Origin: Acidobacteriota bacterium
GTDB lineage: Bacteria; Acidobacteriota; Thermoanaerobaculia; Thermoanaerobaculales; Thermoanaerobaculaceae
Reading direction: 5' to 3'
Length of the DNA stretch: 58,690 bases
NCBI GenBank assembly: GCA_004298115.1
Contig: SCRJ01000191.1
Span: forward strand, 1 to 58,690
A program made the position numbers and the translations under genes. Within the stretch, counting starts at the first letter, position 1; every line of letters begins with the position of its first letter. Positions 9,180 to 12,266 of the stretch are shown one piece after another. The notes under the pieces are model-generated. The model was not told where the DNA came from. It saw only the letters and a list, made by a program, of their open reading frames with translations, and did not search any database.

Positions 9180-9195
9180 GGTGACCAAGGTCACA
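9180..9195. promoter_or_regulatory. CRP/FNR-family-like operator upstream of the nine-heme cytochrome
   Basis: GGTGA-CCAAGG-TCACA, with a perfect 14-base palindromic core apart from its central AA (GTGACC AA GGTCAC), matches the TGTGA-N6-TCACA pattern of CRP/FNR-type regulators. It lies 66 bases upstream of the cytochrome ATG and is followed by the only AT-rich stretch in this neighbourhood (9196-9230), which contains a second half-site (TGGTCACA at 9219-9226). Confidence 0.55.
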
Positions 9196-9260
9196 CACTA
9201 AATTACAAAATGGCAATATGGTCACATTGTACGACGATGTGAACCGGAAAGGGAGGCGCG

Positions 9261-12200
9261 ATGAGAAGGCATACCGTATTCACCGCAGCTTTGGTCCTGG
9301 CTCTGGGCATGGCCGCGGCGCTGCCGAGTTGGGCGGCCACGACCGGATGGACGATCACGGGCTGGAACAACCTGGGCATGCACTGCATGGACTCCGACTT
9401 CTCCGTGTTTGCGATCCTCCCCCCCTACAACACGATCCAGGCCCAGGTGGTGGACGCATCCGGCAACCTGGTGACCAGCGCTTCTGGAGTGACCGTCACC
9501 TACCAGGCGATCGCCGACCCGACGGGCTCGATCAACACGACGTCCGTCGGCAAGGACAACTTCTGGACGTACGCGGCGTCCCTGTTCGGGCTCGCCAAGC
9601 CCCTCCCTCCCGACGTCGGGCTCACCGGGCTCGCGATGCCGGGGATGATGAACCGGGCGCAGCCGATGACGTTCGACCCGGCCAACAACTGGTTCATCGC
9701 CGAAGGGATCCCGATCACGCCCTACGACGACGCCGGCCGCAAGAACAGCTACCCGATGATGCGCCTGGTCGCCAAGGACAGCGGCGGCAACGTGCTCGCC
9801 ACCACGGACATCGTGTTGCCGATCTCGGACGAGATGGACTGCAAGGCCTGCCACGCCTCCAACAGCGGCGCCGCGGCGCGGCCCAACGCCGGCTGGGTGA
9901 ACGACCCCAACGCGGACCGCGACTACAGGCTCAACGTCCTGCGCCTCCACGACGATAGGCAGGCCGGAAGCGCGAGCTACACCGCCGCGCTGTCGCAGGC
10001 GGGGTACTCCACAAGCGGGCTTTACGATACGGCGACGACCGGCGGCAAGCCGATCCTGTGCGCCGCCTGCCACGGCTCCAACGCCCTCGCCGGCACCGGC
10101 CAGGCGGGGATCCCGCCGCTCACCCAGGCGATCCACGGCTATCACGCCAGCGTCATGGACCCGCTCACGAACATGAGCCTGGACAGCAGCTCGAACCGCT
10201 CGGCCTGCTACCGCTGCCACCCCGGCTCCACGACCAAGTGCCTGCGCGGCGCGATGGGCAGCGCGGTCGCAGCCGACGGTTCGATGGAGATGCAGTGCCA
10301 GAACTGCCACGGCCCGATGCACTCGGTCGGAACCGCCGGACGGCAAGGTTGGCTCGACGAGCCCAACTGCCAGAGCTGCCACACCGGCACGGCCGTCGCC
10401 AACAGCGGCCAGATTCGCTACACCAGCGTGTTCGACGCGTCCGGCCAGCCGCGGGTCCCGGTGGATACGACGTTCGCCACGACCCCGAACACGCCGGCCG
10501 CAGGGTATTCCCTCTACCGCTTCTCCCAGGGGCACGGCGGCCTCGAGTGCGCGGCGTGCCACGGCTCCACGCACGCCGAGTACCCGACCTCGCACGTCAA
10601 CGACAACGTCCAGAGCGTCCAGCTCCAGGGGCACAAAGGGATGTTGGTGGACTGCACCACCTGCCACGGCTCGGCGTCGCTCGCGAGCACGGGCGGTCCT
10701 CACGGCATGCACCCGGTCGGCCAGAGCTGGGTCAGCAGCCACGGCGACGCCGCCGACGGCAACGGCGCGCAGTGCCAGACGTGCCACGGCACCGACTACC
10801 GCGGCACCGTGCTCTCGCGCGCCCAGGGCGACCGCACGATCTCGGCGTACGGCACCAAGCTCTTCTGGAAGGGCTACCAGATCGGCTGCTACACCTGCCA
10901 CAACGGGCCGGGAGGCGGCGACTCAGGAACCGCGAACCCGCCGGCCACGGTTGCCAACGCGGCGGCGGCCACGACCGCCGGGACGCCCGTGACGATCCCA
11001 CTGTCCGCCACCGACCCGCACGGCAACACGTTGACGTTGCGAGTCGTCTCGCAACCGGCCAACGGGACGGCCGGACTGACAGGCACCCAGGCCAAGTACT
11101 ACCCCGATGCCTCGTTCACCGGCACCGACACCTTCACCTTCGCCGCCTGGAACGGCTCCACCGACTCCAACCTCGGCACCGTCACGGTGACCGTGGGCGG
11201 TGGCACGACGTGCACGGTGGCCGCGCAGGCGATCGTTCCCTCCACCGCCACCGTCGGACAGTCCATCACGTTCCAGGGCTCGGCCACCTCGCAGGGCTGC
11301 AGCAACCCCGTGGCCTACGCCTGGACGTTCGGCGACGGCTCCGGCTCTTCGCAGCAGAACCCGACGCACGCCTATGCGGCCGCCAACACCTACAGCTGGA
11401 CGCTGACGGTCACCTCGGGCTCCAGCACCAGCTCCGCGAACGGGACCGTGACCGTGACCACCGCGCCCTCGTGCACGGTCACGGCCAACGCGGTCGTCCC
11501 GACCTCGACCGCGGCGGGCTCGGCGATCCAGTTCCAGGGCTCGGCGACCTCGCAGGGCTGCAGCAACCCGATCGCCTACGCCTGGACGTTCGGCGACGGC
11601 TCCAGCTCCTCGCAGCAAAACCCGACGCACGCGTACGCGACCGCCAACACCTACACCTGGACGCTGACCGTCTCTTCCGGCTCGAGCACCAACTCGACGA
11701 GCGGCACCGTAACCGTCACGGCATCGGCGTGCACCGTCACTGCCGCCGCCGTGGTTCCGTCCTCGGCCACCGTCGGCTCGGCGATCCAGTTCCAGGGATC
11801 GGCGACGACGCAGGGGTGCACCGGCACACCCGCCTACGCGTGGACGTTCGGCGACGGCGCCGGCTCGTCGCAGCAGAACCCGACGCACGCCTACGCCACC
11901 GCCAACACCTACACCTGGCGGCTGACGGCCTCGGTGGGCGGCAGCAGCAACACCGCAACCGGTACCATTACCGTGGCCAGCGCGCCGGCGTGCTCGCTGG
12001 TCATCACCGGGACGGCCCCGACCACCGCCTACGTTGGGCAGTCGGTGTCCTTCCCGCTCACGGTCAAGGCCAGCGGTTGCAGCGGCTCGATCAGCTACCG
12101 CTGGAACTTCGGCGACGGCTCGGACGGGTCGACGGCGGCGCAGCCGACCCACACGTACAGCTCGACCGGGACCTACTCGTGGCAGCTCAGGGCGAGCATC

Positions 12201-12266
12201 GGCTCGACCCTGGCCACCGCCACGGGCAAGATCGGCGTCTACCGTCGAGTGCGGCGCGAGTACTGA
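9261..12266 (+). CDS. Exported nine-heme cytochrome c with Ig-like and PKD domains
   Basis: 1001 residues from ATG 9261 (GGGAGG upstream). Signal peptide 1-26 (ending PSWAA). Residues 27-190 are a conserved heme-free N-terminal domain (NNLGMHCMDSD) seen in other multiheme cytochromes. Nine CxxCH motifs run from residue 194 (CKACH) to 543 (CYTCH): CKACH, CAACH, CYRCH, CQNCH, CQSCH, CAACH, CTTCH, CQTCH, CYTCH. Then come an Ig/cadherin-like domain (about 550-645) and four PKD repeats (about 650-1000) with WTFGDG cores. The cell-surface or periplasmic location and a role in long-range or extracellular electron transfer are inferred. No other cytochrome gene is adjacent. Codon use matches the surroundings. 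Confidence 0.93.
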   Translation: MRRHTVFTAALVLALGMAAALPSWAATTGWTITGWNNLGMHCMDSDFSVFAILPPYNTIQAQVVDASGNLVTSASGVTVTYQAIADPTGSINTTSVGKDNFWTYAASLFGLAKPLPPDVGLTGLAMPGMMNRAQPMTFDPANNWFIAEGIPITPYDDAGRKNSYPMMRLVAKDSGGNVLATTDIVLPISDEMDCKACHASNSGAAARPNAGWVNDPNADRDYRLNVLRLHDDRQAGSASYTAALSQAGYSTSGLYDTATTGGKPILCAACHGSNALAGTGQAGIPPLTQAIHGYHASVMDPLTNMSLDSSSNRSACYRCHPGSTTKCLRGAMGSAVAADGSMEMQCQNCHGPMHSVGTAGRQGWLDEPNCQSCHTGTAVANSGQIRYTSVFDASGQPRVPVDTTFATTPNTPAAGYSLYRFSQGHGGLECAACHGSTHAEYPTSHVNDNVQSVQLQGHKGMLVDCTTCHGSASLASTGGPHGMHPVGQSWVSSHGDAADGNGAQCQTCHGTDYRGTVLSRAQGDRTISAYGTKLFWKGYQIGCYTCHNGPGGGDSGTANPPATVANAAAATTAGTPVTIPLSATDPHGNTLTLRVVSQPANGTAGLTGTQAKYYPDASFTGTDTFTFAAWNGSTDSNLGTVTVTVGGGTTCTVAAQAIVPSTATVGQSITFQGSATSQGCSNPVAYAWTFGDGSGSSQQNPTHAYAAANTYSWTLTVTSGSSTSSANGTVTVTTAPSCTVTANAVVPTSTAAGSAIQFQGSATSQGCSNPIAYAWTFGDGSSSSQQNPTHAYATANTYTWTLTVSSGSSTNSTSGTVTVTASACTVTAAAVVPSSATVGSAIQFQGSATTQGCTGTPAYAWTFGDGAGSSQQNPTHAYATANTYTWRLTASVGGSSNTATGTITVASAPACSLVITGTAPTTAYVGQSVSFPLTVKASGCSGSISYRWNFGDGSDGSTAAQPTHTYSSTGTYSWQLRASIGSTLATATGKIGVYRRVRREY
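11211..12247 (+). repeat. Four tandem PKD-encoding repeats
   Basis: Repeats begin at Cys codons 11211, 11472, 11730 and 11991, giving periods of 261, 258 and 261 bases. The first three are nearly identical over long blocks (TSQGCSNP, AYAWTFGDG, SSQQNPTHAYA), while the fourth is diverged. The first three therefore look like recent duplications or are being homogenised. Confidence 0.9.

Follow-up and report, generated by a model that had tools for sequence, protein, structure and literature searches.

A stretch of 58,690 nucleotides from an Acidobacteriota bacterium (hereafter the window, meaning the whole of the DNA analyzed) includes an uninterrupted open reading frame (positions 9261-12266, forward strand, ATG start) for a 1001 amino acid (aa) protein in which a multiheme cytochrome is followed by an immunoglobulin (Ig)-like domain and PKD repeats. 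The question raised by this locus is what such a protein does: carries electrons out of the cell on its own, catalyzes a reaction, forms a filament, or assists another electron transfer system. The protein represents an undescribed type of secreted electron carrier with nine hemes, has relatives in several bacterial phyla, and consists of a signal peptide, an N-terminal domain, nine CxxCH motifs, a Big_9 domain, four PKD repeats, and a short C-terminus, in this order.

The signal peptide, read from the sequence (aa 1-25, MRRHTVFTAALVLALGMAAALPSWA; 9261..9335, forward strand), contains no lipobox and has its hydrophobic maximum at aa 5; the cleavage site is the one that we take to follow from the A-x-A rule. 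Export of the cytochrome and its extracytoplasmic location are thus supported at the level of sequence. A frameshift fusion of a cytochrome with a PKD part, confined to this assembly, was rejected because the frame is open and because Big_9 and PKD domains follow the hemes also in a paralogue from the same genome (L013) and in relatives L001, L004, L020, L024, and L025; the search for the same N-terminal, heme, and PKD architecture proposed in the earlier note found it in these proteins. Just 5' of the start codon, there is an inverted repeat, TCACATTGT / ACGATGTGA (window 9222-9242), and a GTGACC / GGTCAC pair lies at window 9181-9194; both are candidate regulator sites.

The nine-heme domain (9840..10901, forward strand) was delineated by a CxxCH scan and is conserved in relatives. 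The motifs are located at aa 194, 267, 316, 346, 370, 430, 465, 505, and 543 and span 354 residues, in agreement with the nine motifs in about 350 residues originally counted. Chance occurrence was rejected by shuffling of residues 26-560 (2000 shuffles; mean of 0.028 CxxCH motifs, maximum of 2), and no other open frame of the window longer than 100 aa, in any of the six reading frames, contains a CxxCH. Pfam searches detected Cytochrome_C7 (45 bits) and the MtrC/MtrF II-IV domain (PF22113; 40.5 bits, cut-off 30) in this protein, the latter match not being specific because PF22113 also matches an MtrA-like protein (35.4 bits) and E. coli proteins. Profile searches identified no relatives of the cytochrome family in the PDB.

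The heme domain is preceded by a heme-free N-terminal domain (aa 26-192; 9336..9836, forward strand) with the motif WNNLGMHCMD...ILPPYN, and its conservation, asserted in the earlier note, is borne out by the relatives. Pfam yielded no match over aa 1-190 of the window protein and no gathering-level match to this domain in any of the 11 members searched, and no PDB sequence is related to it at a meaningful level. The AF2 model of the domain, built from 11 sequences (pLDDT 72), consists of seven strands and one helix, a predicted beta-sandwich, for which Foldseek returned no target at E <= 0.001, only weak Ig-like folds. In the window's phylum, a profile of the domain had matches in 46 of 396 genomes. 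Of two weak extra places hit by this profile, one is a heme protein, and the other, L087, is a 321-aa frame that covers the domain in part and lacks hemes, possibly a broken gene; heme-free use of the domain was rejected after this search of 396 genomes.

What is new here is that this heme-free domain appears to be tied to the hemes. His41 (9381..9383, forward strand), in the LGMHC motif, is present in all 37 aligned cores (31/31 nine-heme and 6/6 seven- or eight-heme rows); L081 and L082, with eight hemes, and L088, with seven, retain it as well. The adjacent Cys42 (9384..9386) and Cys327 of the heme domain (10239..10241, both on the forward strand) are kept or lost jointly in 53 of 54 rows, four of which were completed by eye: both are present in 50 rows and neither in three, namely, L081 and L082, which belong to one genus, and L095, from another phylum, whereas the remote row L088 has Cys42 alone. 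From this conservation and co-occurrence, we infer that His41 is an axial heme ligand and that Cys42 and Cys327 form a disulfide.

Along with His41, seven histidines outside the CxxCH motifs (230, 292, 295, 425, 438, 481, and 494) are invariant in all 31 nine-heme rows, and H484 is present in 28 of these, the other three having one shifted by two or three residues, which amounts to nine conserved histidines for nine hemes. In the four seven-heme rows, the segment that bears hemes 8 and 9 is missing, six of the nine histidines (41 to 438) are retained, and a PH follows near the end, giving seven for seven; the eight-heme forms match the count less exactly. That conserved histidines decrease in step with the hemes, from nine to seven, is as expected if all these histidines are ligands. 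Neither the ligand pairs nor the disulfide can be seen directly because the AF2 model of the core with Big_9 (pLDDT 56.5) is too poor to read heme ligands; the Foldseek search with this model retrieved mainly Ig-like targets, with MtrC at a probability of 0.25-0.30 over the whole chain. Taken together, the conserved histidine pattern and the cysteine pair suggest electron transfer through exclusively bis-His hemes, along with a disulfide, rather than an enzyme.

The alternative that survives best, albeit an unlikely one, is a periplasmic or secreted multiheme enzyme of the NrfA, HAO, octaheme, or OcwA kind, in which the N-terminal beta domain would be part of the active site. Counting histidines is no proof because OcwA of Thermincola, as described in the accessible part of its report, has enough histidines for nine bis-His hemes, yet two of its hemes are open and one is His-Met coordinated (PMC6703420), and Met332 is invariant in 31 of the 31 nine-heme rows, which also counts in favor of the enzyme. 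Against it stands the fall in conserved histidines along with the hemes; furthermore, no NCBIfam octaheme or NrfA model reached its cut-off (those for NrfA and octaheme tetrathionate reductase were unlisted or far below), and a PDB search with the family profile (E <= 1) retrieved none of these enzymes. OcwA, a nonaheme surface reductase with an extra beta domain, resembles the window family in these features, including the predicted surface role, but has open hemes, whereas the matched histidine set of the window family argues against open distal sites; the 12-row family profile matched no OcwA chain in the PDB at E <= 1.

C-terminal to the hemes, Pfam detects, as the earlier note had it, one Ig-like domain and four PKD repeats, all on the forward strand: Big_9 (aa 560-644; 10938..11192; PF17963, 43.5 bits, cut-off 23.6, E 6e-11) and PKD repeats 1 (aa 649-735; 11205..11465), 2 (aa 736-821; 11466..11723), 3 (aa 822-908; 11724..11984), and the divergent 4 (aa 909-993; 11985..12239). 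The PKD models PF18911 (PKD_4) and PF00801 scored above cut-off (190.2 and 107.8 bits, respectively, four stretches each), and each repeat contains two cysteines exactly 29 residues apart. To call three of the repeats near-identical was too strong because protein identity among repeats 1-3 is 67-75% (DNA identity, 76-79%), and repeat 4 is 36-40% identical to the others. Directly after repeat 4, the protein closes with eight basic-aromatic residues, YRRVRREY, and the stop codon (12240..12266, forward strand), where no anchor or sorting motif was seen and no hydrophobic segment is present (maximum hydropathy of 0.61 over the last 60 aa). The far end of the tail has no visible anchor, given that there is no lipobox, no hydrophobic C-terminal segment, and nothing but this short end beyond repeat 4, and the original picture of a heme wire held off the envelope by a stalk is accordingly unsupported. 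A stalk is possible; the Ig/PKD tail may instead bind the matrix or the cell surface.

The relatives suggest what the tail replaces. In a set of 35 rows, with tailed proteins defined as those extending more than 60 residues past the last heme, a lipobox was found in none of the 15 tailed rows (0/17 with the window protein and L025, added by eye) and in 10 of the 20 tail-less rows, and seven of the seven further Campylobacterota copies are tail-less, all seven with a lipobox-like signal at the start. In L018, the tail consists of Big_9 followed by SLH repeats (SLH, 62 bits). The tailed and tail-less kinds require two changes on the tree, and the split follows clades, so that it represents few events rather than many independent ones. 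At the sequence level, the tail appears to be one of several attachment modules, exchanged with a lipid anchor or SLH repeats.

The paralogue L013, on contig 19 of the same genome, is 73% identical to the window protein over the core, and the two are sisters on the tree (support 93/87); past the PKD part, L013 continues with an Ig-like domain and a C-terminal part of about 220 residues. Three nine-heme relatives, L036, L038, and L041, carry additional N-terminal sequence (AFNFGTYN...WKGLAVAN) ahead of the core that, by eye, recalls the C-terminal part of L013, a possible domain shuffle. An exact-peptide scan of 84,980 species genomes yielded 11 loci, with five named phyla among them; the core occurs in Acidobacteriota, Myxococcota, Verrucomicrobiota, Campylobacterota, and Pseudomonadota. 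Profile search at E <= 1e-30 detected the family in 44 of the 396 sampled genomes of the window's phylum, and profile search of 200 sampled genomes from the phylum of a Sulfurimonas genome detected it in seven. The distribution is patchy, since the gene is missing from four further genomes sampled within the window's bacterial family.

Among characterized proteins, members of the MtrC/OmcA/UndA family (TIGR03507, PF22113) are similarly exported multiheme proteins with a beta domain before the hemes, but have ten or eleven hemes, whereas the window protein has nine and no lipid anchor; in OmcA and MtrC, ten hemes are divided between two pentaheme domains, with two beta domains, in contrast to nine CxxCH motifs in one run. 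TIGR03507 did not match the window protein at E <= 1 (cut-off of 209.3 bits). Cytochromes with an adhesive beta domain are already in print: in the accessible parts of the respective reports, OmcZ, Gmet_0930, and OmcN of Geobacter are extracellular multiheme cytochromes with putative Ig-like domains (PMC10989804), and OetF is one with a fibronectin domain (PMC10553843). Unlike the window family, these proteins have eight or 34 hemes and other folds. Multiheme cytochrome clusters with beta-barrels have also been published for marine Acidobacteriota (PMC8528874, accessible part). By sequence, the family belongs to none of the known kinds compared, OmcX (PMC10553843, as far as accessible) lying outside this comparison. 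The PKD repeats match PKD chains of the collagenase ColH, where the tail serves a hydrolase. The papers searched yielded no case of PKD and Big_9 joined to this N-terminal domain, and in the open PMC library covered, none combines 'multiheme', 'c-type cytochromes', and 'PKD domain', although names may exist in paywalled papers.

A filament-forming nanowire cytochrome similar to OmcS, OmcE, or OmcZ, with an Ig/PKD part that caps or bundles the polymer or is cleaved from it, appears improbable. An orphan gene position is common for filament-forming cytochromes, which counts in its favor, as do the putative Ig-like domains of OmcZ and Gmet_0930; however, there is no profile relation to the OmcS, OmcE, or OmcZ chains, and the histidine count gives no hint of a ligand from a neighbor subunit.

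The neighbors of the window gene are, upstream, an alanyl-tRNA editing-type protein and a VTT/DedA-type membrane protein and, downstream on the opposite strand, a 4-alpha-glucanotransferase, a family 5 solute-binding protein, and then a TonB-type receptor. No MtrA-like cytochrome or porin is encoded at the locus, and no viral contigs or plasmids were encountered in the searches on the family. Of the claim that this is a conduit encoded without partner genes, the absence of adjacent partners holds, whereas the stand-alone conduit does not: the look for porin-cytochrome genes elsewhere in the genome, which the earlier note advised, revealed an MtrA/MtrC-type cluster on contig 88 (L045 4811-14687). 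The gene order in this cluster is barrel-like protein, ten-heme MtrA/DmsE-like cytochrome, seven-heme cytochrome, OmcA/MtrC ten-heme cytochrome (TIGR03507; 455 bits, cut-off 209), second ten-heme MtrA/DmsE-like cytochrome (198 bits, cut-off 192), which adjoins the OmcA/MtrC gene, and barrel-like protein. The two barrel-like proteins are related to each other and belong to no Pfam family, and their porin assignment relies on position, signal peptide, and, for one of them, a weak match to NF041027; in BLASTP, the latter is weakly similar to the GSU2204-type barrel of L051. MtrB/PioB (PF11854) had no match in the genome. Judging from these genes, the organism very likely possesses an outer-membrane conduit, and because this cluster is in the same genome, the window cytochrome need not be the conduit itself; more likely, it acts downstream of the contig 88 conduit. 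The self-sufficient surface conduit on a PKD stalk of the first reading, although in line with nine hemes, four PKD repeats, and no adjacent partner, is highly improbable given the missing stalk anchor, no porin alongside, and the MtrA/MtrC cluster elsewhere in the genome.

In raw counts over the phylum sample that ignore kinship, an MtrC- or MtrA-like gene is present in 37 of 44 genomes that carry the family compared with 182 of 352 non-carriers, and an MtrC-like gene alone in 18/44 versus 45/352; MtrA-like genes alone are not enriched (25/44 versus 163/352, p = 0.20, kinship likewise ignored), and seven of the 44 carriers have neither conduit cytochrome at the threshold used. Conduit cytochromes rarely neighbor the family: with the own genome's proteins as queries, which would miss divergent barrels, one was found nearby in 1 of 48 neighborhoods (L051) and in none of five further Campylobacterota loci. 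In L051 (G374), a shortened copy is located one methyltransferase gene beyond a GSU2203/GSU2204 conduit module and an octaheme cytochrome. A 19-CxxCH protein with a weak cytochrome b561 match is encoded in one frame on G000 contig 36 (45320-46978; L046).

Ten Campylobacterota loci (L005-L009, L097-L101) were compared, and five of them share what looks like a conserved regulatory neighborhood. A related OmpR-type response regulator is encoded next to the cytochrome gene in L006, L007, L097, L098, and L099 (L005 and L008 have weaker ones), a related sensor kinase in L007, L097, L098, and L099, and a porin-like protein together with a small exported protein without Pfam match in L007, L098, and L099. 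These gene arrangements suggest that the Campylobacterota cytochrome is regulated by an external signal; at the window locus, there is neither a two-component system nor a porin-like neighbor. L097 (G591 contig 1, 2364000-2383900) has three cytochrome copies in about 10 kb, two of which flank small genes that, as named from their first residues, resemble ribosomal protein and RNA polymerase alpha genes; L100 also adjoins genes of such appearance.

The best reading of the window protein is an accessory extracellular cytochrome of an uncharacterized family, the function of which we infer from sequence. Specifically, it would be a nine-heme c-type cytochrome that is secreted and associated with the outer surface or the matrix, an electron relay rather than an enzyme, anchored by its Ig/PKD tail (probability of roughly 0.55). 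The location outside the cell is presumed, and the exported protein could stay in the periplasm. The sequence supports the first steps of this reading: the protein is exported and carries nine hemes, each of which can be bis-His, with the N-terminal beta domain contributing one ligand, His41, and being fastened to the heme domain by the Cys42-Cys327 disulfide. Electrons would cross the outer membrane through the MtrA/MtrC-type conduit of contig 88 and pass outside to the window cytochrome, whose onward acceptor would be a mineral, another cell, or an additional cytochrome. Retention at the cell surface or within the matrix would fall to the Ig/PKD tail, a role for which other members would use a lipid anchor or SLH repeats.

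Thus, the tailed cytochrome probably helps the cell pass electrons to the outside. More tentatively, the family might constitute a new class of outer-surface cytochromes beside MtrC/OmcA and OcwA, with a nine-heme core, a disulfide-locked beta domain that donates a ligand, and attachment modules (lipid anchor, SLH, Ig/PKD) that are swapped among members. If so, a widespread cytochrome family unnamed in curated models would gain recognition, and annotating its heme-free part separately would miss a heme ligand. If this class is real, the same wire could be placed on the membrane, the S-layer, or the biofilm matrix; these would be natural swaps of the anchoring part in an extracellular cytochrome and would allow one to ask how the site of attachment of such a protein decides the fate of electrons, be it minerals, partners, or the matrix.
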